A stretch of 64,000 nt of DNA from an uncultured Porphyromonadaceae bacterium (lineage in GTDB: Bacteria; Bacteroidota; Bacteroidia; Bacteroidales; Muribaculaceae), in assembly GCA_946414395.1 (NCBI GenBank), contig CAMKOE010000002.1, forward strand, positions 62,001 to 126,000, in the 5' to 3' direction. The translations under genes were made by a program, and so were the position numbers. The notes under the pieces are model-generated. The model did not search any database. It was not told where the DNA came from and saw nothing but the letters and a program-made list of their open reading frames with translations. Of this stretch, positions 22,937-32,057 are shown piece by piece; position 1 is the first letter of the stretch; each line of letters starts with the position of its first letter.

Positions 22937-24643
22937 TTACTGCAGGATGATGGCGATGATGGCGTTCACATCGCTGATGTTGACTTCGCCGTTACCATCC
23001 ACGTCGGCAGACGCATCAACGTTGCCCCCGCCCAGTATGGCACTGATAACCTGACTCACGTCGCTGATGTTCACCTCGCCGTTGCCATCCACGTCACCAG
23101 GGGTCACGGCGGGCATTTCCTCGATGATGCGGAAGTAGTTGCTCCACCTCTTGTCGGCCTTATAGGCCGCTTGAGTGCCTGCAGGCACATTCAGTCGGCG
23201 TCCCCAGTAATTACTGGTAATGAGGGAAAAAGCATCATCTTCTACCGTCATGTCGGCAGGAGACTTGATGTAAGTATAAACGTCCCGCAAGTTGTCGCAT
23301 CCCTCAAACGCCGACTCCCCAATGAAAGAAACTGTGGCGGGAATGGTGATGGTGGGCAATTCCTCGCAGTAGTAGAACGCACTTTCACCGATGGAGGTGA
23401 GGCTATTGGGCAGCGTGACACTGGCCAACTTATAGCAACTATCGAACACACGGTCCTTAATCACCTTGACCGAGTTGGGGATGACGATGCTCTCGAGACC
23501 AGTGCACCAAAAGAATGTCCACTCTCCCATGTCGGTGATGGAATTGGGGATGTCGATTGTGGTCAATCCTGTACAACTGCCAAACGACTCGTTGCCCAGG
23601 GCAGTCACGCTGCGGGGTATGGTGGTGGTCATGCAACCTGTTATCAACCTGTTGGCTGCTGTCTCGATAATCGCATTGCAGCCCCCGCGGGAATCGTAAT
23701 TGGGATTGCCGCTCTCGACCTTGATGTTCTTGAGTTTCTCACAACCATAGAACGGATTTGCCCCCATGGTGGTGACCGTGCTGGGGATGGTGACGCTCGA
23801 CAAGCCGGAGCAGCCTTCATACGCGTAGGACCCGATCGTGGTCAACGTGCTGGGGACGGAGAATGCCGTCAATCCTGTACAGCCGCCAAAGGATCCTTCA
23901 CCCAGGCTCGTCACAGTGCTGGGAATGATGGTAGTCATGCAACCTGATATCAACGTGCTGGTTGCCGTCTCGATAATCGCATTGCAGCCCCCGCGGGAAT
24001 CAAAATTGGGATTGCCGCTCTGAACCTTGATAGACCTCAAGTTAGAGCAGTAAATGAATGGATTCTTACCCAGGTGGGTGACCGTGCTGGGGATGGTGAC
24101 ACTTGACAGTTCATAGCAGTCACCAAAGGCGTACGAGCCGATGGTGGTGACCGACTGTGGAATGCTCACACTCATCAGGCCGCTGCCGCGGAAGGCATTG
24201 CTGCCAATGGTGATGAGCGAGTTGGGGAGCGTTATGCTCATCAGATTACTGCATTCACCGAACGCAAAAACGCCGATGCTGGTGAGCGAACTGGGAAGTG
24301 ACACACTATACAGGTTGGAGCACATCAAGAAGGCAGATTCCCCAATGCTGGTGACCATGGACCCGACAGTCACCTTCTGCAGGTATTCGCAGAAGACAAA
24401 CGCCATCTCGCCGATGCTGGTGACGTTATAACTTGTCCCATTGTAGGAGACCATGCGCGGGATGGTGACGTTGCCCGAATAACCGCCCGAGTAAGGACTA
24501 TCACCCTTATAGGTGACAGCCACCTCGTTGCTACTGGTGATATTGTAGTACACACCACCCACGGCAAAATCGTGAGCCTGGGCCAGCGCTGGTGAGAGAA
24601 TCGCCATCATGGCGAGAGCAAGGGAGTACAAGAGATTTTTCAT
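22937..24643 (-). CDS. BspA-type leucine-rich repeat protein with C-terminal dockerin-like repeats
   Basis: The 568-residue secreted protein has a signal peptide (cleavage near ALAQAHD), then an array of LRR_5/BspA repeats (about residues 60-480) of the form VTSIGESAFxxCxxL. Two near-identical blocks contain GGCNAIIETA and an ITGCMTT-type tail, marking an internal duplication. The last 55 residues hold two DVDGNGEVNISDV repeats, which match the calcium-binding loops of type I dockerins. BspA repeats mediate adhesion or ligand binding. The function of the dockerin-like end in a species without visible cohesins is unclear. I chose the internal ATG because a signal peptide starts there. Confidence 0.88.
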   Translation of the reverse strand: MKNLLYSLALAMMAILSPALAQAHDFAVGGVYYNITSSNEVAVTYKGDSPYSGGYSGNVTIPRMVSYNGTSYNVTSIGEMAFVFCEYLQKVTVGSMVTSIGESAFLMCSNLYSVSLPSSLTSIGVFAFGECSNLMSITLPNSLITIGSNAFRGSGLMSVSIPQSVTTIGSYAFGDCYELSSVTIPSTVTHLGKNPFIYCSNLRSIKVQSGNPNFDSRGGCNAIIETATSTLISGCMTTIIPSTVTSLGEGSFGGCTGLTAFSVPSTLTTIGSYAYEGCSGLSSVTIPSTVTTMGANPFYGCEKLKNIKVESGNPNYDSRGGCNAIIETAANRLITGCMTTTIPRSVTALGNESFGSCTGLTTIDIPNSITDMGEWTFFWCTGLESIVIPNSVKVIKDRVFDSCYKLASVTLPNSLTSIGESAFYYCEELPTITIPATVSFIGESAFEGCDNLRDVYTYIKSPADMTVEDDAFSLITSNYWGRRLNVPAGTQAAYKADKRWSNYFRIIEEMPAVTPGDVDGNGEVNISDVSQVISAILGGGNVDASADVDGNGEVNISDVNAIIAIILQ

Positions 24644-24687
24644 AATAGATAAGATTATAGTGATTGAACATTTGGTTTTTTCACTCG

Positions 24688-24695
24688 CAAAGATA
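24688..24695 (-). promoter_or_regulatory. -7 element TATCTTTG for the LRR-dockerin gene
   Basis: It is an exact TAnnTTTG match on the minus strand, 45 bases before the chosen start codon. This also supports the internal ATG over the longer open frame. Confidence 0.65.
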
Positions 24696-24826
24696 CAGAA
24701 AGAATGTATAAAAAACAATAGTATTGTTATATTTTTTCCTATTAATCACTGATGACAGGCACCTACCATCCTAGTTGACAGGCATCTATAGATTCCAATC
24801 CTGTCGTCGAGCCATTCTGTGTGTCT

Positions 24827-25815: not shown

Positions 25816-25821
25816 GGAGTG

Positions 25822-26898
25822 TCAGAACCGGGTGATGCCCATGATTTCACGCACGTCGGCCAGGGTCTTGCTGGCGCGGGCGCGGGCACGCTCGGCACCC
25901 ATCTCCAGGACGCGGTGCAGGTAGGCATCGTCGTTCTCGATGTCGATGATGCGCTCGCGGATGGGGGTGGTGAGGGCCACAATGTCCTCGGCAATCTCCT
26001 TCTTGAGGTCGCCGTAGCGGATTGAGCAGTTGTTATAGGCCTCGGTGAAATACTCCACCTTGTCGGGGGTGCCGACGAGTTTGAGGATGGTGAAGAGGTT
26101 CTGCACGGCTTCGGCCATGGGCTGATTGGGCTCGGTGGGGCCACCATCGGTCACGGCGCGCATCACCTTCTTGCGGATGACCTTCTCCTCATCGACCAGA
26201 TAGATGCAGTTGCCCTCGCTCTTGCCCATCTTGCCGCTGCCGTCCAGGCCGGGCACCTTGACAGGCGCGCTGCCAAAGTTGAAGTTCTGCGGCTCCTTGA
26301 AGTAGTCGGTCTTGTAGAACGAGTTGAAGCGGCGTGCAAAGCGGCGCGTCAACTCCAGGTGCTGCTCCTGGTCCTTGCCAACGGGCACGAAGTCGGCACG
26401 CTGGATGAGGATATCGACGGCCATCAGGGTGGGATAGGTCAACAGGCCGGCATTCACGCGCTTGTTGGTGCTGGCGCCGATGATCTCCTTGGCCACGTCC
26501 TCGTCGTCATCGCCCTGATTGGGGGCGGTGATGCCCAGGGCCTTACGGGCCTTGTCCTTGAAGGCGGCCGTGCGCATCAGTTCGCCGATGCCCACGTGCA
26601 TGTTGAGCAACAGGTACATCTCGCTCACCTCGGGCACGTCACTCTGTACAAAGATGGTCGATTTCTCGGGATCCAGGCCCGCGGCCAGGTATTCGGCCAG
26701 AATGTGGCGCACGTTGGTGTGCAACTCTTTGGGGTCGGGGTTGGTCGTGAGGGCATGCAGGTCGGCAATGAAGTAGTAACTGTCGTACTGGCCTTCGTTC
26801 TGCATCTTCACAAAGTTACTCAAGGCGCCCAGGTAGTTACCCAGATGCAATTGCCCGGTGGGGCGTATTCCGCTCAAAACAATCTTCTTGTTATCCAT
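25822..26898 (-). CDS. trpS: Tryptophanyl-tRNA synthetase
   Basis: This class I synthetase charges tRNA-Trp. In the 358-residue product TGQLHLGNYLG (about residues 14-24) is the HIGH-type signature and GKMGKSEGN is the KMSKS-type loop. The tryptophan-binding helix region AVDILIQRADFVPVGKDQEQHLELTR is typical. The gene stands alone and is divergent from the Ser/Thr kinase gene, with the two promoters about 30 bases apart. Length is slightly above the usual 330-340 residues. Confidence 0.97.
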   Translation of the reverse strand: MDNKKIVLSGIRPTGQLHLGNYLGALSNFVKMQNEGQYDSYYFIADLHALTTNPDPKELHTNVRHILAEYLAAGLDPEKSTIFVQSDVPEVSEMYLLLNMHVGIGELMRTAAFKDKARKALGITAPNQGDDDEDVAKEIIGASTNKRVNAGLLTYPTLMAVDILIQRADFVPVGKDQEQHLELTRRFARRFNSFYKTDYFKEPQNFNFGSAPVKVPGLDGSGKMGKSEGNCIYLVDEEKVIRKKVMRAVTDGGPTEPNQPMAEAVQNLFTILKLVGTPDKVEYFTEAYNNCSIRYGDLKKEIAEDIVALTTPIRERIIDIENDDAYLHRVLEMGAERARARASKTLADVREIMGITRF

Positions 26899-26932
26899 AT
26901 TCTGATTCTTGCAATTTTATTTTACCGAATTG

Positions 26933-26940
26933 CAAAGGTA
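26933..26940 (-). promoter_or_regulatory. trpS -7 element TACCTTTG
   Basis: It is an exact TAnnTTTG match on the minus strand, 35 bases before the trpS start, next to the opposite-facing kinase promoter. Confidence 0.65.
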
Positions 26941-26968
26941 ATCATTTTTTTTAAATCAGGAAAAAGTG

Positions 26969-26976
26969 TATCTTTG
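26969..26976 (+). promoter_or_regulatory. -7 element TATCTTTG for the Ser/Thr kinase gene
   Basis: It is an exact TAnnTTTG match 31 bases before the kinase start codon, and it supports the short start rather than the much longer open frame. Confidence 0.7.
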
Positions 26977-27006
26977 CATTGTGTTAAAAACTATACCATT
27001 GCGACA

Positions 27007-28458
27007 ATGACAACCGACTCGGGATGGGACAACGAGATGAAAACGGTTGATGTGGGTTACAACTTTACCGACATCACACCGCTGGGTGGGCACCAGCATG
27101 GCTACTGCGATGTGTACCGTGCCCGCCGTTACGGCAAGTGGCATGTCCTGAAGGCCTTGAAGCCGCAATACCGCGACACTCCCGCCTGCCAGGCCATGCT
27201 GCACAAGGAGTTTGACATCGGTTTCCAGTTGTCTCATCCTGGCATCGCCAGCACGCTGGGGCTGGAGCATGTCGATTCCCTGGGTGAATGCATTATCGAG
27301 GAATGGGTGGACGGCGTGAGGCTGGACGAGTTGATCGCTCGTGACGATTTCACCGCCGCCAAGGCGCGAGACATTATCAAGCAATTGTGCGAAGTGTTGA
27401 AATACATCCACACCCGTCAGGTGACTCACCGCGACCTCAAGCCCAGCAACATCCTCATCACGGCCGACGGCAACAGGGTAAAGGTGATTGACTTCGGCGT
27501 GAGCGACACCGCCAGCCACGCCATCTTTAAGGGGCCTGCCGGCACTCTGGACTATACCGCGCCCGAATTGCTGGCTGGCGAAGCGGCCGACTCGCGTGCC
27601 GACCTCTACTCCCTGGGCATCATCATCAACCTGATGAACAACGCCTTGCCTCGTGTTGATCGGCAGTTATCCAAGATTGCCCAATGGTGCAGTCAAGCCA
27701 ATCGAGACCAGCGCCCAGCAGATGCCAGCAAGGTGCTGGACGCACTCCAGCGCCCCACTAAGTCGGTCCGCTATCTTTTCATTGCCACCGCCACATTAGC
27801 CACCTTGCTGATAGCCACAGCCATAGCGATGGTCATCAAGTTTGGCCTACCTTGGCAACAGGTTCCTGCCGAAGTGCCCGCCAACGACACCACAGCACGG
27901 GTGGCAACCGCCACAGTTGACACCACTGTGGCCAATACCACCCGTGCTGATGCAGATGTCAGCACAACCGATGCCACCAACGACGCAGCAGGAACTGTCG
28001 CTCAACCTCAGTCTGTCCAGCCACCTCAGACGGCCCCGCCGGCCCAATCAGCCCAACCGCCTGCCCAAGAAGAATCCCCCGACAAGTTGCCGCCCTTAGT
28101 GCGCCAGAAATTCCTTGCCAAGGCCGCCAGCGTGGGGATGCTCGGGGCCATTAACGCCAAGGGGAGTCTTGACGAGACTCTCAGACTTCAAGGTAAGGAA
28201 GCCTTTGACCGCTATATTACCGAGTTTTTGAAAGAAAGAATCGAGGGCGAACTCGTTTATGAGGCTAACAACATGTTCATCAATGATCTGGGACATAACA
28301 AGGCCATGCGTGAGTTCCTGCTCACACCCGAGGGGCACCGCATGTTGAGCGCAGGGCGCAAGGTGGCCTTTGAGTATGCTCAAGACAGGCTACATCAACT
28401 TTACCCCGATCTGGACATCCCACCCTTCACCTTCAACAAAACCGAATGGTTCGATTAA
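27007..28458 (+). CDS. Membrane-anchored Ser/Thr protein kinase
   Basis: The 483-residue protein has a complete eukaryotic-type kinase domain (residues about 20-250). It shows a glycine-poor P-loop GGHQHGYCDVYRA, the ATP lysine in VLKALKP, the catalytic HRDLKPSN (Asp143), IDFG (162-164) and APE near 186. One transmembrane helix follows (about 256-278), then a Thr/Ala/Pro/Gln-rich linker (about 285-365) and a C-terminal helical region of unknown fold on the other side of the membrane. The ATG follows a matching promoter. It faces the DUF697/ACP cluster and is the likely signalling partner, though this is inferred from position only. Confidence 0.9.
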   Translation: MTTDSGWDNEMKTVDVGYNFTDITPLGGHQHGYCDVYRARRYGKWHVLKALKPQYRDTPACQAMLHKEFDIGFQLSHPGIASTLGLEHVDSLGECIIEEWVDGVRLDELIARDDFTAAKARDIIKQLCEVLKYIHTRQVTHRDLKPSNILITADGNRVKVIDFGVSDTASHAIFKGPAGTLDYTAPELLAGEAADSRADLYSLGIIINLMNNALPRVDRQLSKIAQWCSQANRDQRPADASKVLDALQRPTKSVRYLFIATATLATLLIATAIAMVIKFGLPWQQVPAEVPANDTTARVATATVDTTVANTTRADADVSTTDATNDAAGTVAQPQSVQPPQTAPPAQSAQPPAQEESPDKLPPLVRQKFLAKAASVGMLGAINAKGSLDETLRLQGKEAFDRYITEFLKERIEGELVYEANNMFINDLGHNKAMREFLLTPEGHRMLSAGRKVAFEYAQDRLHQLYPDLDIPPFTFNKTEWFD

Positions 28459-28468
28459 CGCCCCAAAA

Positions 28469-28489
28469 AATCAAGCCATTGACTTGATT
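28469..28489. terminator. Weak hairpin between convergent kinase and ACP-fusion genes
   Basis: AATCAAG (28469-28475) pairs with CTTGATT (28483-28489). A run of A precedes it, giving T on the minus strand, so it would suit the ACP-fusion gene best. The 7-base-pair stem is weak. Confidence 0.4.
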
Positions 28490-28506
28490 ATCGCTAACAA
28501 TCCCGC

Positions 28507-29307
28507 TTAGGATGTATAGACGTCAACTAACCTAATGGCTTCTTGAACGGTAGAGATACTTTCAGCAACGTCGTCAGGAATCTCTATGCCAAAATGGCTC
28601 TCAAACCGCATTACCAATTCAACCAAGTCAAGGCTATCAGCGCCCAAGTCTTCAATAAATCTTTTCTCAGGCCTCACATTACTGATGCTAACACCCAATG
28701 TATCAGCAATAATACGTCTGGCTACTTCAGCATTACTGCTACTGCCGGATGAAGAACCGCTCAGAGTGCGACTGGGAGAGCCGCCCGACATAACCGCTTT
28801 GAAGCCATCCTCGGTAACGTCGCCATAATCCAAGACTTGCTTCAATATAGAGAGATAACTATAGGCTGCTGTATAAAGTGCAGTTCTGTTAATGGCGGGA
28901 CCTGCAACGGCACCAGCGACTTGACCAATGACAGGTATTTTATTCACAACAGCAGTTGCGGCAAATGCAAGTCCATTAGAGGCCAAGTTCCCGACAATTC
29001 CACTAGCCACACTCTTCAAGAAATTATCAGAGAATGACACACCTATCACCTTGTTGATGTCATAATACATCTTCCAGGTCGATGCTATGATGGCTCCACC
29101 CGATGCCAGTTCACCACCCGGGATAGCGCTGGCCACGCCAGCCCAACTAACCACCGTGGCATGGCTCTTGACCTTGTCGATAATTTCCTGTGCCAGGAAA
29201 TTAGATGCTTGATCATCTACATACCCTCTTGATTTCTTGAGAACCGGATGATTTTTCTTATAGAGCAAATCACCGATCTCGTATGCTATATTTTCAAATA
29301 GTTGCAT
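28507..29307 (-). CDS. DUF697-like hydrophobic domain fused to an acyl carrier protein
   Basis: The 266-residue protein combines two parts not usually joined. The N-terminal 175 residues resemble the YcjF/DUF697 type: a helical region, then hydrophobic glycine/alanine-rich segments with [10 protein letters not shown] and [15 protein letters not shown]. After a Ser/Gly linker (about 176-192), residues 193-266 are an acyl carrier protein with [11 protein letters not shown], where Ser225 is the expected phosphopantetheine site, and FGIEIPDD. The N-terminal part is clearly paralogous to the DUF697-like gene two positions upstream. It lacks the GTPase that usually accompanies DUF697. The role is unknown; an acyl group carried near a membrane is one possibility. 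Confidence 0.82.
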
Positions 29308-29373
29308 TCTGTGTCAGTTTTTACAATTGATCGATTTTAAAACATTTTTCCATGAAGGTAGAACACAGTCTAA

Positions 29374-29411
29374 TCGGTGGTGGAGTGTGATATTGAACAT
29401 TCCACCACCGA
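29374..29411. promoter_or_regulatory. Perfect hairpin in the 157-base gap of the cluster
   Basis: TCGGTGGTGGA (29374-29384) pairs perfectly over 11 bases with TCCACCACCGA (29401-29411). Flanking AACACAG (from 29362) and CTGTTGTGTT (to about 29432) can extend it. No strong T-run follows, so it could be a transcript-processing or regulatory structure rather than a simple terminator. Confidence 0.55.
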
Positions 29412-29464
29412 GAACTCCGAACACTGTTGTGTTTAAGATCAGTAGTGTTGGGAAAAAAGTCGCA

Positions 29465-29689
29465 CTACCATGTGTGCCCACATTTATTGCAATGATATTC
29501 AGGTTCTTCTCCAGCAGAGCCTAGCAAAGCGCCAATGCCAGCACCGATTGCAGCACCAATTGGCCCGCCTAGGGCCATTCCTGCTGCCGCACCACCCCAA
29601 GCGCCATGGGCCTTGTGGGAACCACCTTTTGATGAAAATAACCTTGATGAATCTACATCAGAGGAACCACATTTTGGACAAGTTGCCAT
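29465..29689 (-). CDS. Small double zinc-ribbon, glycine-zipper membrane protein
   Basis: The 74-residue protein has CPKC at residues 4-7 and CNKC at 67-70, enough to build one zinc ribbon by bringing both ends together. Between them is a glycine/alanine-rich stretch (about 29-58, GMALGGPIGAAIGAGIGALLG) of the glycine-zipper type found in membrane-inserting helices. The tail ends CGHTW. I do not know a named family. It lies between the two DUF697-like genes on the same strand, 50 bases after the first, so it is probably part of the same transcript. Confidence 0.75.
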   Translation of the reverse strand: MATCPKCGSSDVDSSRLFSSKGGSHKAHGAWGGAAAGMALGGPIGAAIGAGIGALLGSAGEEPEYHCNKCGHTW

Positions 29690-29739
29690 AATTATAAGAT
29701 TTTAAAGATGTTAATAATTAAAGAGTATTATATAGATGA

Positions 29740-30285
29740 TTAGTAGTCCTTTTTGGCCTGATCAATGAAGCGCTTGATGAATCCTTTATCACCCAGCACT
29801 TGGTCTATTGCGGCCTTGAGGTCAGAGCCCGTGATGCTTGTCCCGCCACTGCGACCTGCGGCAAAAGACAGCGCTTTCAGGTAAACATATCCTGAAGCCA
29901 ATGTCAAAGCATATTGGGCGGCACTCATGACAACAGCGCCACCTATTGAGCCGATGACGGGAATGAATTTCAGTGCGCTAGCCACACCCGAGATGGCAAT
30001 ATACCCCGCGAGATTGGTCGCTACACCAGAGCCGATCGACTTGATGATATTCTCGGCAAAGGGGAGATTGATCTTGTTATTGATGCGGATATACATTCCC
30101 CAGATGCTTGCCGCTCCTGCTGCAAGATCGGCCCCTGGAACTGGTATCCACGACGAGGCCACGGCAAGTTTGCTATGAGTCTTGACCACATCGACTATCT
30201 CCTTGGGCAGCAGGTTGTCGGCCTGTTTATCAAGTTGCTCCACAACTTCCTTGGCGACGTGGAGTAATTCGTGATCTATATTCAT
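29740..30285 (-). CDS. Stand-alone DUF697-like membrane protein
   Basis: The 181-residue protein matches the DUF697/YcjF-type pattern. It has LPKEIVDVVKTHSKLAVA, then the WIPVPGADLAAG phrase (compare PIPGADL of DUF697), a hydrophobic helix pair, and LKFIPVIGSIGGAVVMSAAQY. DUF697 normally follows a dynamin- or Era-like GTPase domain; here the GTPase is missing. Its first 140 residues align with the N-terminal half of the ACP fusion, so the two are paralogues. A lysine-rich tail ends the protein. Gap to the upstream 73-residue gene is 11 bases. Confidence 0.78.
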   Translation of the reverse strand: MNIDHELLHVAKEVVEQLDKQADNLLPKEIVDVVKTHSKLAVASSWIPVPGADLAAGAASIWGMYIRINNKINLPFAENIIKSIGSGVATNLAGYIAISGVASALKFIPVIGSIGGAVVMSAAQYALTLASGYVYLKALSFAAGRSGGTSITGSDLKAAIDQVLGDKGFIKRFIDQAKKDY

Positions 30286-30296
30286 AATTAATGATT

Positions 30297-30518
30297 TCAG
30301 TTGATTCGTTCCACGTCGAGGTAAGCCATGTTGAGGGCGCCGGCGCGGCGGATGTCGATACCGTAGATGCGCATGAAGGCGTCGGCAACGGGTTGGCCAC
30401 CGTTAGTTAACACAGGGTTGCTCATCGATTGGGTAACCACTTCGACAGACATGCCGGGCTCGATGCGTATGCCGTTGGCATTCTTCATTTGCTTGGTTGT
30501 GATGATAAATCTTGGCAT
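30297..30518 (-). CDS. Short conserved protein, possible DUF6140 family
   Basis: This 73-residue protein starts PRFIITTKQMKNANGIRIEPGMSVEVV, a small beta-rich module, and continues to a MRIYGIDIRRAG segment. I recall similar short proteins labelled DUF6140 in Bacteroides, but I am not certain. It is the first gene of the four-gene minus-strand run, close to a matching promoter. I chose the internal ATG because 27 upstream codons would cover that promoter's leader. Function is unknown. Confidence 0.7.
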   Translation of the reverse strand: MPRFIITTKQMKNANGIRIEPGMSVEVVTQSMSNPVLTNGGQPVADAFMRIYGIDIRRAGALNMAYLDVERIN

Positions 30519-30564
30519 AGTCAGTAATAATTTAATTGTATAAGGCTTTAAGAATATTTGGTTG

Positions 30565-30572
30565 CAAATATA
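30565..30572 (-). promoter_or_regulatory. -7 element TATATTTG for the DUF697/ACP gene run
   Basis: It is an exact TAnnTTTG match on the minus strand, 47 bases before the first gene of the run. The divergent promoter of the DNA-binding-like gene lies about 90 bases away. Confidence 0.6.
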
Positions 30573-30659
30573 GACGTTTGACATGGTAAAATATGGCATT
30601 GTGTTGGTTCAAGTTGGTTCACGGAATGCAAGAATAATAAAAGAATTTAAATAATGTTG

Positions 30660-30667
30660 TAAATTTG
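30660..30667 (+). promoter_or_regulatory. -7 element TAAATTTG immediately before a start codon
   Basis: Only six bases separate this exact TAnnTTTG match from the ATG of the next gene. If the promoter is used, transcription would begin at or very near the start codon, giving a leaderless message. Confidence 0.6.
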
Positions 30668-30673
30668 CGCCCA

Positions 30674-31246
30674 ATGAATATTACCGACCACGAAATAAAA
30701 GATTTGATAAAGATGGTGGAGACTAAACTGGGCAGGCCACTTGCAGCGCCTGTGGATTTTAGTCTCCTGTCACTCGAGATAGAAAAGACGCTTAACGAGA
30801 CAATCAGCATATCAACCATCAAGCGACTGGTGGGCTATGTCAACGATGAGCACAGGCCCAGCGTCACGACATTGAATCTGCTGTCACGATATGTGGGTTT
30901 CAAGAACTGGCAAACCCTGCAACTTCATCTTGATGACACGACATCGGGGTCACTCAGTGAGGATATCATTCAGTCCAGCAGTCTGGCTGTCGGTGATGAG
31001 TTGGAAATGGAATGGCTGCCCGACCGTTATTGCCATGTCAGATTCGTGGGTAATAACCGGTTTGAAGTGATTGATGTGAGGGGCAGCAAGCACCTGCAAG
31101 TAGGTGACACGTTCGAGACGCTTGTCCTGTGCCTTGGACAGCCGGTCATGGGGACCAACCACATTCACGGCGATGAGCGACGCCCCATCTACATCATCGG
31201 GCGCCGTCACGGCCTGTCGGCCCTAAGGAAAATCAAAGAAACATAA
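30674..31246 (+). CDS. DNA-binding-like regulator of unknown target
   Basis: The 190-residue protein has an N-terminal helical module (residues about 5-85) with the pattern ISISTIKRLVGYV ... PSVTTLNLLSRYVGFKNWQTLQ. This resembles a small helix-turn-helix-like domain seen at the start of many Bacteroidota proteins. The C-terminal half is beta-rich with DRYCHVRFVGNNRFEVID and may bind a ligand. It is divergent from the DUF697/ACP run and convergent with suhB, so it is a candidate regulator of the cluster. That is inferred from position. The ATG is preferred over a TTG three codons earlier. Confidence 0.75.
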   Translation: MNITDHEIKDLIKMVETKLGRPLAAPVDFSLLSLEIEKTLNETISISTIKRLVGYVNDEHRPSVTTLNLLSRYVGFKNWQTLQLHLDDTTSGSLSEDIIQSSSLAVGDELEMEWLPDRYCHVRFVGNNRFEVIDVRGSKHLQVGDTFETLVLCLGQPVMGTNHIHGDERRPIYIIGRRHGLSALRKIKET

Positions 31247-31256
31247 TTCACCCCTC

Positions 31257-32057
31257 TCACTCGACCATGGCGAGCAAGTCGCCGGCAATGCCGGGGCAGG
31301 CTGCCAGGATGCAGATGCCGTGGTCGTTGCGGTAGCGCTTGACGATGGCCCCGGCCTCAAGGGCAATGAGTTCGCCCGCACAGGCATCCCACTCCTTGAG
31401 ATTCAACTCCCAGTAACCATCCAGCCATCCGGCGGCGACATAGCACAGGTCCATCGCTGCCGAGCCGAGGCGGCGGATTCCCCTCACGCGCGGCATGACC
31501 TGGGCAAAACGGTCCAGGTTGTTGTCGGGATTGGTGGCCTTGTCATAGGGGAAACCTGTCGAGATGACAGAGCGCTGCAACTCGGTCGTGGATTTCGCCT
31601 CCAGCCGCCCGTAGGGGCCTACTGCGCCCTTGCCCTTGACGGCACAAAATTCCTCACCGAGTGTGGGGGCATAGACATATCCCATGTGTGTAACGCCATC
31701 GACCTTGAGCCCGATGGAGATGCAGTAGCAGGCCAAGCCTGCACTGTAATTGACCGTCCCGTCCAGCGGATCGATGACCCACTGATAACGGGCCTGGCGG
31801 TGGTCGTCGCCGCTCTCCTCGCTCAGGATCGCATGATCGGGGTATCGGGAGTGCAGCATGTCGATAATGACGCATTCGCTGCCCTTGTCGGCCTCGGTCA
31901 CAATATCATAGGCGCTACCCTTATCCTCGATATTCAAGTCACGGCGGCGGAAGTAGGCTCTCAATACCTCGCCCGCCTCATGGCCCATCTCCCGTGCACA
32001 CTCCAGCCAATCCTTTTCCTGGCTGGTCAACGGCTCTCTAAACATGTTTTTCATCAT
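31257..32057 (-). CDS. suhB: Inositol-1-monophosphatase family phosphatase
   Basis: Magnesium-dependent phosphatases of this family hydrolyse inositol or other sugar phosphates. The 266-residue protein shows the metal-binding glutamate in ILSEESGD, the DPLDGTVNY signature, and the late WDACAGELI segment in which the aspartate is a third metal ligand. The family member here could equally dephosphorylate another substrate, such as 3'-phosphoadenosine phosphate or a sugar phosphate, so the gene symbol is only a family label. It ends 10 bases from the convergent regulator gene. Confidence 0.9.
   Translation of the reverse strand: MMKNMFREPLTSQEKDWLECAREMGHEAGEVLRAYFRRRDLNIEDKGSAYDIVTEADKGSECVIIDMLHSRYPDHAILSEESGDDHRQARYQWVIDPLDGTVNYSAGLACYCISIGLKVDGVTHMGYVYAPTLGEEFCAVKGKGAVGPYGRLEAKSTTELQRSVISTGFPYDKATNPDNNLDRFAQVMPRVRGIRRLGSAAMDLCYVAAGWLDGYWELNLKEWDACAGELIALEAGAIVKRYRNDHGICILAACPGIAGDLLAMVE

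Follow-up and report, generated by a model that had tools for sequence, protein, structure and literature searches.

Do the six genes that lie between trpS and suhB in an uncultured Muribaculaceae bacterium work as one system, or do unrelated units share the interval? The window analysed here, 64,000 nucleotides of contig CAMKOE010000002.1 (assembly GCA_946414395.1; the source genome, G000, is 81% complete), carries in that interval a membrane kinase on the forward strand, four small genes on the reverse strand and, forward again, a gene for a 190-amino-acid (190-aa) protein. Positions follow the numbering of the window, and G and L numbers denote the genomes compared and the loci fetched from them, respectively. 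In reading order the small genes encode DUF6140, a 181-aa DUF697-like protein, a 74-aa split-CxxC protein and a 266-aa fusion of a DUF697-like domain with an acyl carrier protein (ACP). A first-pass annotation had joined the kinase and the small genes into a single unrecognised membrane signalling cluster. Our sequence comparisons indicate that the locus is instead two interleaved modules, the kinase with the 190-aa gene and the four-gene cassette, and we put at roughly 0.6 the probability that the latter is an exchangeable membrane-protection cassette whose ACP domain would dock fatty-acid enzymes at the membrane.

The separation into modules emerged from gene neighbourhoods in 101 genomes of the same genus, in each of which the kinase, the 190-aa protein, DUF6140 and a DUF697-like family profile served as queries, with the listed places then compared (Poisson expectations assume 2.8 Mb genomes and independence, and many genomes are fragmented and incomplete, such that contig ends can hide neighbours). 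Of 122 places with a kinase relative, 103 also have a relative of the 190-aa protein no more than 5 kb away, where 0.5 would be expected, and the two genes form a multicopy paralogous pair in the genus (122 and 119 places, with nine kinase relatives in G135). Neighbours were varied, among those listed, at 20 further fetched kinase/190-aa loci, and in five more distant loci (L126-L130) the two relatives lie close together without an intervening cassette. DUF6140 and kinase relatives are rarely adjacent, lying within 10 kb of each other at 3 of 39 DUF6140 places (contig ends may hide a few), which, by the test proposed with the first-pass annotation, tells against a cluster that includes the kinase. 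DUF6140 lies within 4 kb of a DUF697-like gene at 11 of 13 DUF697-like places (0.014 expected; the exceptions are G594 and G135), and five of six further close DUF697-like relatives (L005, L006, L009, L010, L066 and L090) have DUF6140 in the fetched stretch, the sixth, L009, starting at a contig end. Two of these carry the DUF6140 and DUF697-like core outside the genus, L090 (G054) in a different genus within the family and L066 (G487) in a different family; L004 and L008 were not counted as unrelated backgrounds, and weaker DUF697-like relatives in G042, G177 and G136 had no DUF6140 within 1.5 kb. The description as an unrecognised membrane cluster is therefore fair for the four small genes, which recur as a set, but it does not extend to the kinase, which is not a regular member; we rejected the kinase as part of the cassette on this co-localisation together with the versions of the locus in G602, G659 and G664.

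Those versions revealed a slot between the kinase and the 190-aa gene. DNA of G602 (L124) matches the window over 25820-28484 and again from 30604 (blastn), and between the kinase next to trpS and the 190-aa gene next to suhB that genome has a single 230-aa gene, with a zinc ribbon at the C-terminus. Two lipoprotein-like genes occupy the slot in G659 (L123), where the match also resumes at 30604, such that in both genomes the kinase and the 190-aa gene stay and other genes replace the cassette. In G637 DUF6140 (94.5%) occupies the position it has in the window, next to the 190-aa gene, but what follows it there is a zinc-ribbon membrane protein, on a contig that stops before any kinase. In G664 one sees between trpS and suhB a kinase remnant (L248:5700-5843; the first 52 codons, 83% identical), with the kinase body, the 190-aa gene and the cargo all missing. 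The trpS of the window is 95-99% identical to the copies in L123, L124 and L248. We consider it highly probable that DUF6140 is a head gene followed by an exchangeable cargo slot. Across 26850-31400, boxes of the form TAnnTTTG, which we take to be the Bacteroidota-type promoter consensus, lie only before trpS, the kinase, the 190-aa gene and DUF6140, so the four small genes are probably their own transcription unit, although the 157-nucleotide gap before the ACP fusion may split the cassette into two; the inverted repeat in this gap is a possible attenuator or processing site. Because the box at 30572 falls within the longer open reading frame (ORF), DUF6140 probably starts at 30518, giving 73 aa.

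Evaluating the proteins of the first module, we found that the kinase is a membrane-anchored Ser/Thr kinase as first annotated, scoring 118 bits against PF00069 (cut-off 31.7) and possessing the HRD and DFG motifs and one hydrophobic segment. It also matches the PADLOC model of the anti-phage kinase PD-T4-6 (E 4e-36), with a best match that spans the kinase domain only, and many other kinase models match it too. Its partner had been called DNA-binding-like, which we could not confirm: the 190-aa protein has no convincing family in Pfam, NCBIfam, PADLOC or PHROGs, with nothing at E ≤ 1 in the first two and weak matches in PADLOC (E 0.016) and PHROGs (E 0.14).

Within the cassette, DUF6140 is unambiguous, at 118.1 bits against a PF19637 gathering score of 27. 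The two paralogues next to it had been described as DUF697-like proteins lacking their usual GTPase, and a Pfam scan indeed found no GTPase among the six proteins of 26969-31246. Their family membership stands in part. A profile built from the window family finds two proteins that Pfam calls DUF697, L180 (E 5e-17) and the GTPase-DUF697 protein L183 (E 2e-8, within its DUF697 part), but neither window protein passes PF05128 itself (gathering score 27.7), the 181-aa paralogue scoring 12.7 bits and the fusion giving no match. DUF697 domains are usually, though not obligatorily, linked or fused to a GTPase; the window proteins thus differ from the known family in lacking one, in their sub-cut-off score, in their tandem arrangement and in the C-terminal ACP on one of them. 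The small zinc-ribbon/glycine-zipper protein is present as proposed, with two CxxC knuckles, a glycine-rich hydrophobic stretch and a homologue in L008 (tblastn), and its Pfam matches are all below cut-off among the best 25 of 28. LITAF-type zinc ribbons likewise consist of two knuckles parted by a membrane-inserted stretch, and this layout is shared by the 74-aa protein and by other cassettes, with a glycine zipper as the insert in the window; a zf-LITAF-like match is absent from those best 25 of 28 and weak for the relative in L125 (E 0.028).

Elsewhere DUF6140 heads other cargo. DUF6140 occurs in 32 of the 101 genus genomes (31 over the cut-off), in 20 of 393 genomes of the order and in 2 of 296 of the phylum, the source genome included. 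The cargo behind it at 33 loci includes tandem DUF697-like genes, DUF1232 and M48 genes, and dynamin-like GTPases, with three of the latter each in L164, L166 and L168 and one in L175. In L166:884-7112, as in L164 and L168 (the latter a close copy of L166), a small gene stands between the first and second of the three dynamin-family genes; the L166 trio matches Dynamin_N at E 2e-18 to 3e-22, and its third member resembles LeoA/LeoBC over most of its length. These sister cassettes, with one or three dynamin-like proteins, recall the LeoABC/Eleos and DynA systems, whereas library scans found no dynamin GTPase in the window cassette, whose own membrane proteins are DUF697-like. Bacillus subtilis DynA is reported to protect against phage and antibiotics (PMC8844932). 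Proteins of about 600 aa with a front zinc ribbon and a common C-terminal repeat follow DUF6140 in L167, L171 and L174, and L172:6090-7934 encodes, directly behind DUF6140, a complete three-domain EF-Tu joined to the same repeat tail. The split CxxC pattern appeared in 11 of 158 ORFs downstream of 44 DUF6140 heads against 2 of 301 control ORFs, a count that is low by at least one (the split zinc ribbon of L008 was missed by ORF picking) and that includes two positives, L165 and L071, unlike the rest. DUF6140 was not mentioned in a search of the open-access literature, outside which most subscription papers and bioRxiv fall.

The ACP fusion stands as first described, in one frame, with the ACP domain passing curated cut-offs (PF00550, E 3.5e-13, 50 bits against 20.8; TIGR00517, E 8e-24, 83.3 against 70.45), matching 102 distinct PDB sequences (E ≤ 1e-5) and keeping the phosphopantetheine-type serine (GADSLD, Ser225). 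In these respects it resembles AcpP, the ACP of fatty-acid synthesis; it differs in being 54% identical to the host ACP, in a slightly less acidic helix II and in being tied by a Ser/Gly-rich linker to a membrane-type domain. The nearest relative of its N-terminus, the third gene of L004 (73% identical), ends where the linker starts and has no ACP. A second fusion occurs in L007 (Candidatus Liminaster caballi), of another family (f111) and with a DUF697-like domain of a different subgroup. Because the L007 ACP is closer to the stand-alone ACP of its own contig (75% identical) than to that of the window fusion (54%), and because in the ACP tree it joins its contig's ACP and three ACPs of the window's family (86/93), apart from the window fusion, two separate captures probably took place, the window fusion itself sitting on a long branch of unsure position. 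No further ACP was present among the DUF697-like loci examined for one, a set that excludes the distant G232, G252 and G499. The DUF697-like protein of G042 has a zinc-ribbon-like end in place of the ACP, and the C-terminal end of the domain may itself be a swap site. A search with the whole fusion matched 187 of 198 family genomes, a tally that is uninformative on the fusion because all but four of the matches listed (two in G000, one each in G054 and G135) are to the ACP part alone. The same literature search did not find DUF697 together with an acyl carrier protein.

These observations suggest how the locus might work. The membrane kinase and its 190-aa partner sit between trpS and suhB as the first module, with the DUF6140-headed cassette in the variable slot on the opposite strand, read leftward from its own predicted promoter. 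The DUF697-like proteins and the split zinc ribbon would insert into or rest on the inner membrane, and upon envelope attack (phage, antimicrobial or loss of potential) could oligomerise and seal, reshape or block the membrane, a job that dynamin-like GTPases may do in the sister cassettes under DUF6140. A host transferase would make the ACP holo, and the ACP would then dock fatty-acid or phospholipid enzymes at those membrane sites. A role in membrane stress or protection seems to us slightly better than an even bet, and holo docking by the ACP an even one. The earlier proposal that an acyl group and a phosphorylation signal act together at the membrane is unsupported, as we found nothing showing joint action.

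The alternative that survives best is that the cassette uses a copy of some abundant host protein as bait, joined to an effector, to sense phage or toxin proteins by which the original is attacked or hijacked. The two apparently independent ACP captures would fit this, as would the L172 EF-Tu, which is 88% identical over about 400 residues to the genome's other EF-Tu and is fused to a repeat tail behind DUF6140. However, the EF-Tu case comes from one genome, no phage protein or trigger is known, and the ACP is equally plausible as a docking or acyl-donor domain. Defence libraries also failed to set the cassettes apart: of 93 neighbours of 44 DUF6140 genes, the 78 scanned (the 15 left out were mostly upstream genes) matched 48 PADLOC families at E ≤ 1e-5, and 78 control genes, taken from a pool of 142 candidates near kinase loci, matched 66, such that we dropped the reading as a defence island. 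Neighbours of DUF6140 do include WYL, GmrSD_N, PDDEXK_4, AAA and Dynamin_N, a qualitative observation without a Pfam control. Open-access searches found nothing on 'PDC-S48', and on ACP and phage-defence terms the acyl carrier protein appeared in none of the matches listed. We regard bait as unlikely, and its extension, in which DUF6140 cassettes would serve as a chassis for the recurrent capture of abundant host proteins (ACP at least twice, EF-Tu once), coupled under one head gene to membrane or repeat-tail effectors as a bait-based membrane immunity of Bacteroidales with essential housekeeping proteins as baits, as a doubtful conjecture. An origin of the cassette in phages or plasmids was likewise rejected: DUF6140 gave one partial match in phage records (41 of 73 residues), none in plasmids and none confirmed in viral contigs, the DUF697-like profile none confirmed in viral contigs (one pattern searched), and the ACP fusion matched phage records through its ACP part only, in the best 20 of 38 records.

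Some proximity does weigh against a clean division into two modules, and favours a single unit in which the kinase signals to acyl-carrying membrane proteins. Of 16 strong DUF6140 loci in the genus, three have a kinase or 190-aa relative no more than 5 kb away, with 0.07 expected (Poisson P 5e-5), and in L128 (G628) DUF6140 and a DUF697-like gene stand 2 kb off, on the opposite side of the kinase; at the matching place in L129 (G135) there are a DUF3944 gene (presumably YaaW-type) and others instead. The cassette's proximity to kinase modules fits an insertion hot spot, and kinase and cassette may occasionally be linked in function. As a single unit, though, the arrangement is very unlikely, as 36 of 39 DUF6140 places have no kinase relative within 10 kb, contig ends allowing, G602 and G659 keep the kinase and its partner without the cassette, and the kinase, encoded on the opposite strand, has a promoter of its own. 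Least probable of all is a neutral insertion heading for decay with no working product, for despite a fragmentary DUF697-like gene in the G146 cassette and the losses in G664, none of the four window frames is interrupted, the ACP site and the zinc knuckles remain intact, and the core persists both in another genus and in another family.

The coordinates of all features are collected in Table 1. Base composition had been described as visibly lower in guanine plus cytosine (GC) across the four small genes than in trpS or suhB, and this held for total GC (fusion 0.457, zinc protein 0.511, paralogue 0.511 and DUF6140 0.541, against 0.599 in trpS and 0.598 in suhB; the mean of 49 window ORFs is 0.540, standard deviation (sd) 0.058) but not uniformly at third positions, where values clearly under the mean of 0.689 (sd 0.125) are seen for the fusion (0.434) and the zinc protein (0.320), the paralogue (0.571) is within one sd and DUF6140 (0.703) does not stand out. 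Total GC is low in the 190-aa gene as well (0.504). At 22937-24718 the window encodes a 593-aa repeat protein that reads like a leucine-rich-repeat surface protein, with similar proteins in the vicinity of several fetched loci (L124, L125, L128 and L131).

A candidate structured leader RNA, with nested helices GCGUGGG/CCCACGC and UGCUCGU/ACGAGCA followed by a T-run and with 4 of 14 pairs changed on both sides, lies ahead of DUF6140 in nine seed-set loci and ahead of the DUF3944 cassette in L129, other copies preceding other genes. It occurs in 71 of the 101 genus genomes, in up to 12 copies each, and gave no gathering-level Rfam match in 10 loci (for one element, chance-level matches at E up to 10). 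It was ruled out as the head of the window cassette, being found neither in the window nor in its genome.

Table 1. Positions of features in and around the trpS-suhB interval, and of leader RNA copies at other loci.
Feature	Position	Strand	Basis or remark
trpS, left edge of conserved frame	25822..26898	-	PF00579 E 1.8e-62
TAnnTTTG promoter box, kinase	26969..26976	+	41 such boxes in whole window
Membrane-anchored Ser/Thr kinase (module 1)	27007..28458	+	PF00069 E 6e-34, hydrophobic aa 253-284, HRD and DFG motifs
Cassette: stretch without G602 (L124) match between trpS and suhB	28485..30603		blastn
DUF697-like-ACP fusion, 266 aa	28507..29307	-	single open frame; PF00550, TIGR00517
ACP domain, about aa 194-262, GADSL site (Ser225)	28522..28728	-	PF00550, TIGR00517
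DUF697-like N-terminal domain, about aa 1-175	28783..29307	-	73% identity to L004 third gene
11-bp inverted repeat between split zinc-ribbon gene and ACP fusion gene	29374..29411		read by eye
Zinc-ribbon-like protein, 74 aa	29465..29689	-	glycine-rich hydrophobic stretch (aa 34-58) between two CxxC knuckles
DUF697-like protein without GTPase, 181 aa	29740..30285	-	family alignment; PF05128 E 0.11; hydrophobic aa 92-125
DUF6140, head gene of cassette, 73 aa	30297..30518	-	PF19637 E 1.7e-34; AlphaFold 2 (AF2) model, predicted local distance difference test (pLDDT) 83.7
TAnnTTTG promoter box, cassette	30565..30572	-
TAnnTTTG promoter box, 190-aa gene	30660..30667	+
190-aa partner gene of kinase	30674..31246	+	linkage to kinase relatives in 101 genomes
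suhB, right edge of conserved frame	31257..32057	-	PF00459 E 9e-61
Candidate leader RNA copies	L166:7424-7540, L167:6914-7030, L173:6010-6127, L128:11520-11644, L129:11302-11426
Candidate leader RNA copies, continued	L164:188-308, L006:9298-9412, L066:8303-8410, L005:2104-2211, L068:4563-4678

Because two modules interleave here, our observations urge caution in treating gene neighbours as one system. DUF6140 gains a context from them, as a small constant gene that heads exchangeable membrane-protein cassettes, and an ACP tethered to a DUF697-like domain, apparently reached twice, asks whether fatty-acid status or an attack on ACP controls a membrane effector.

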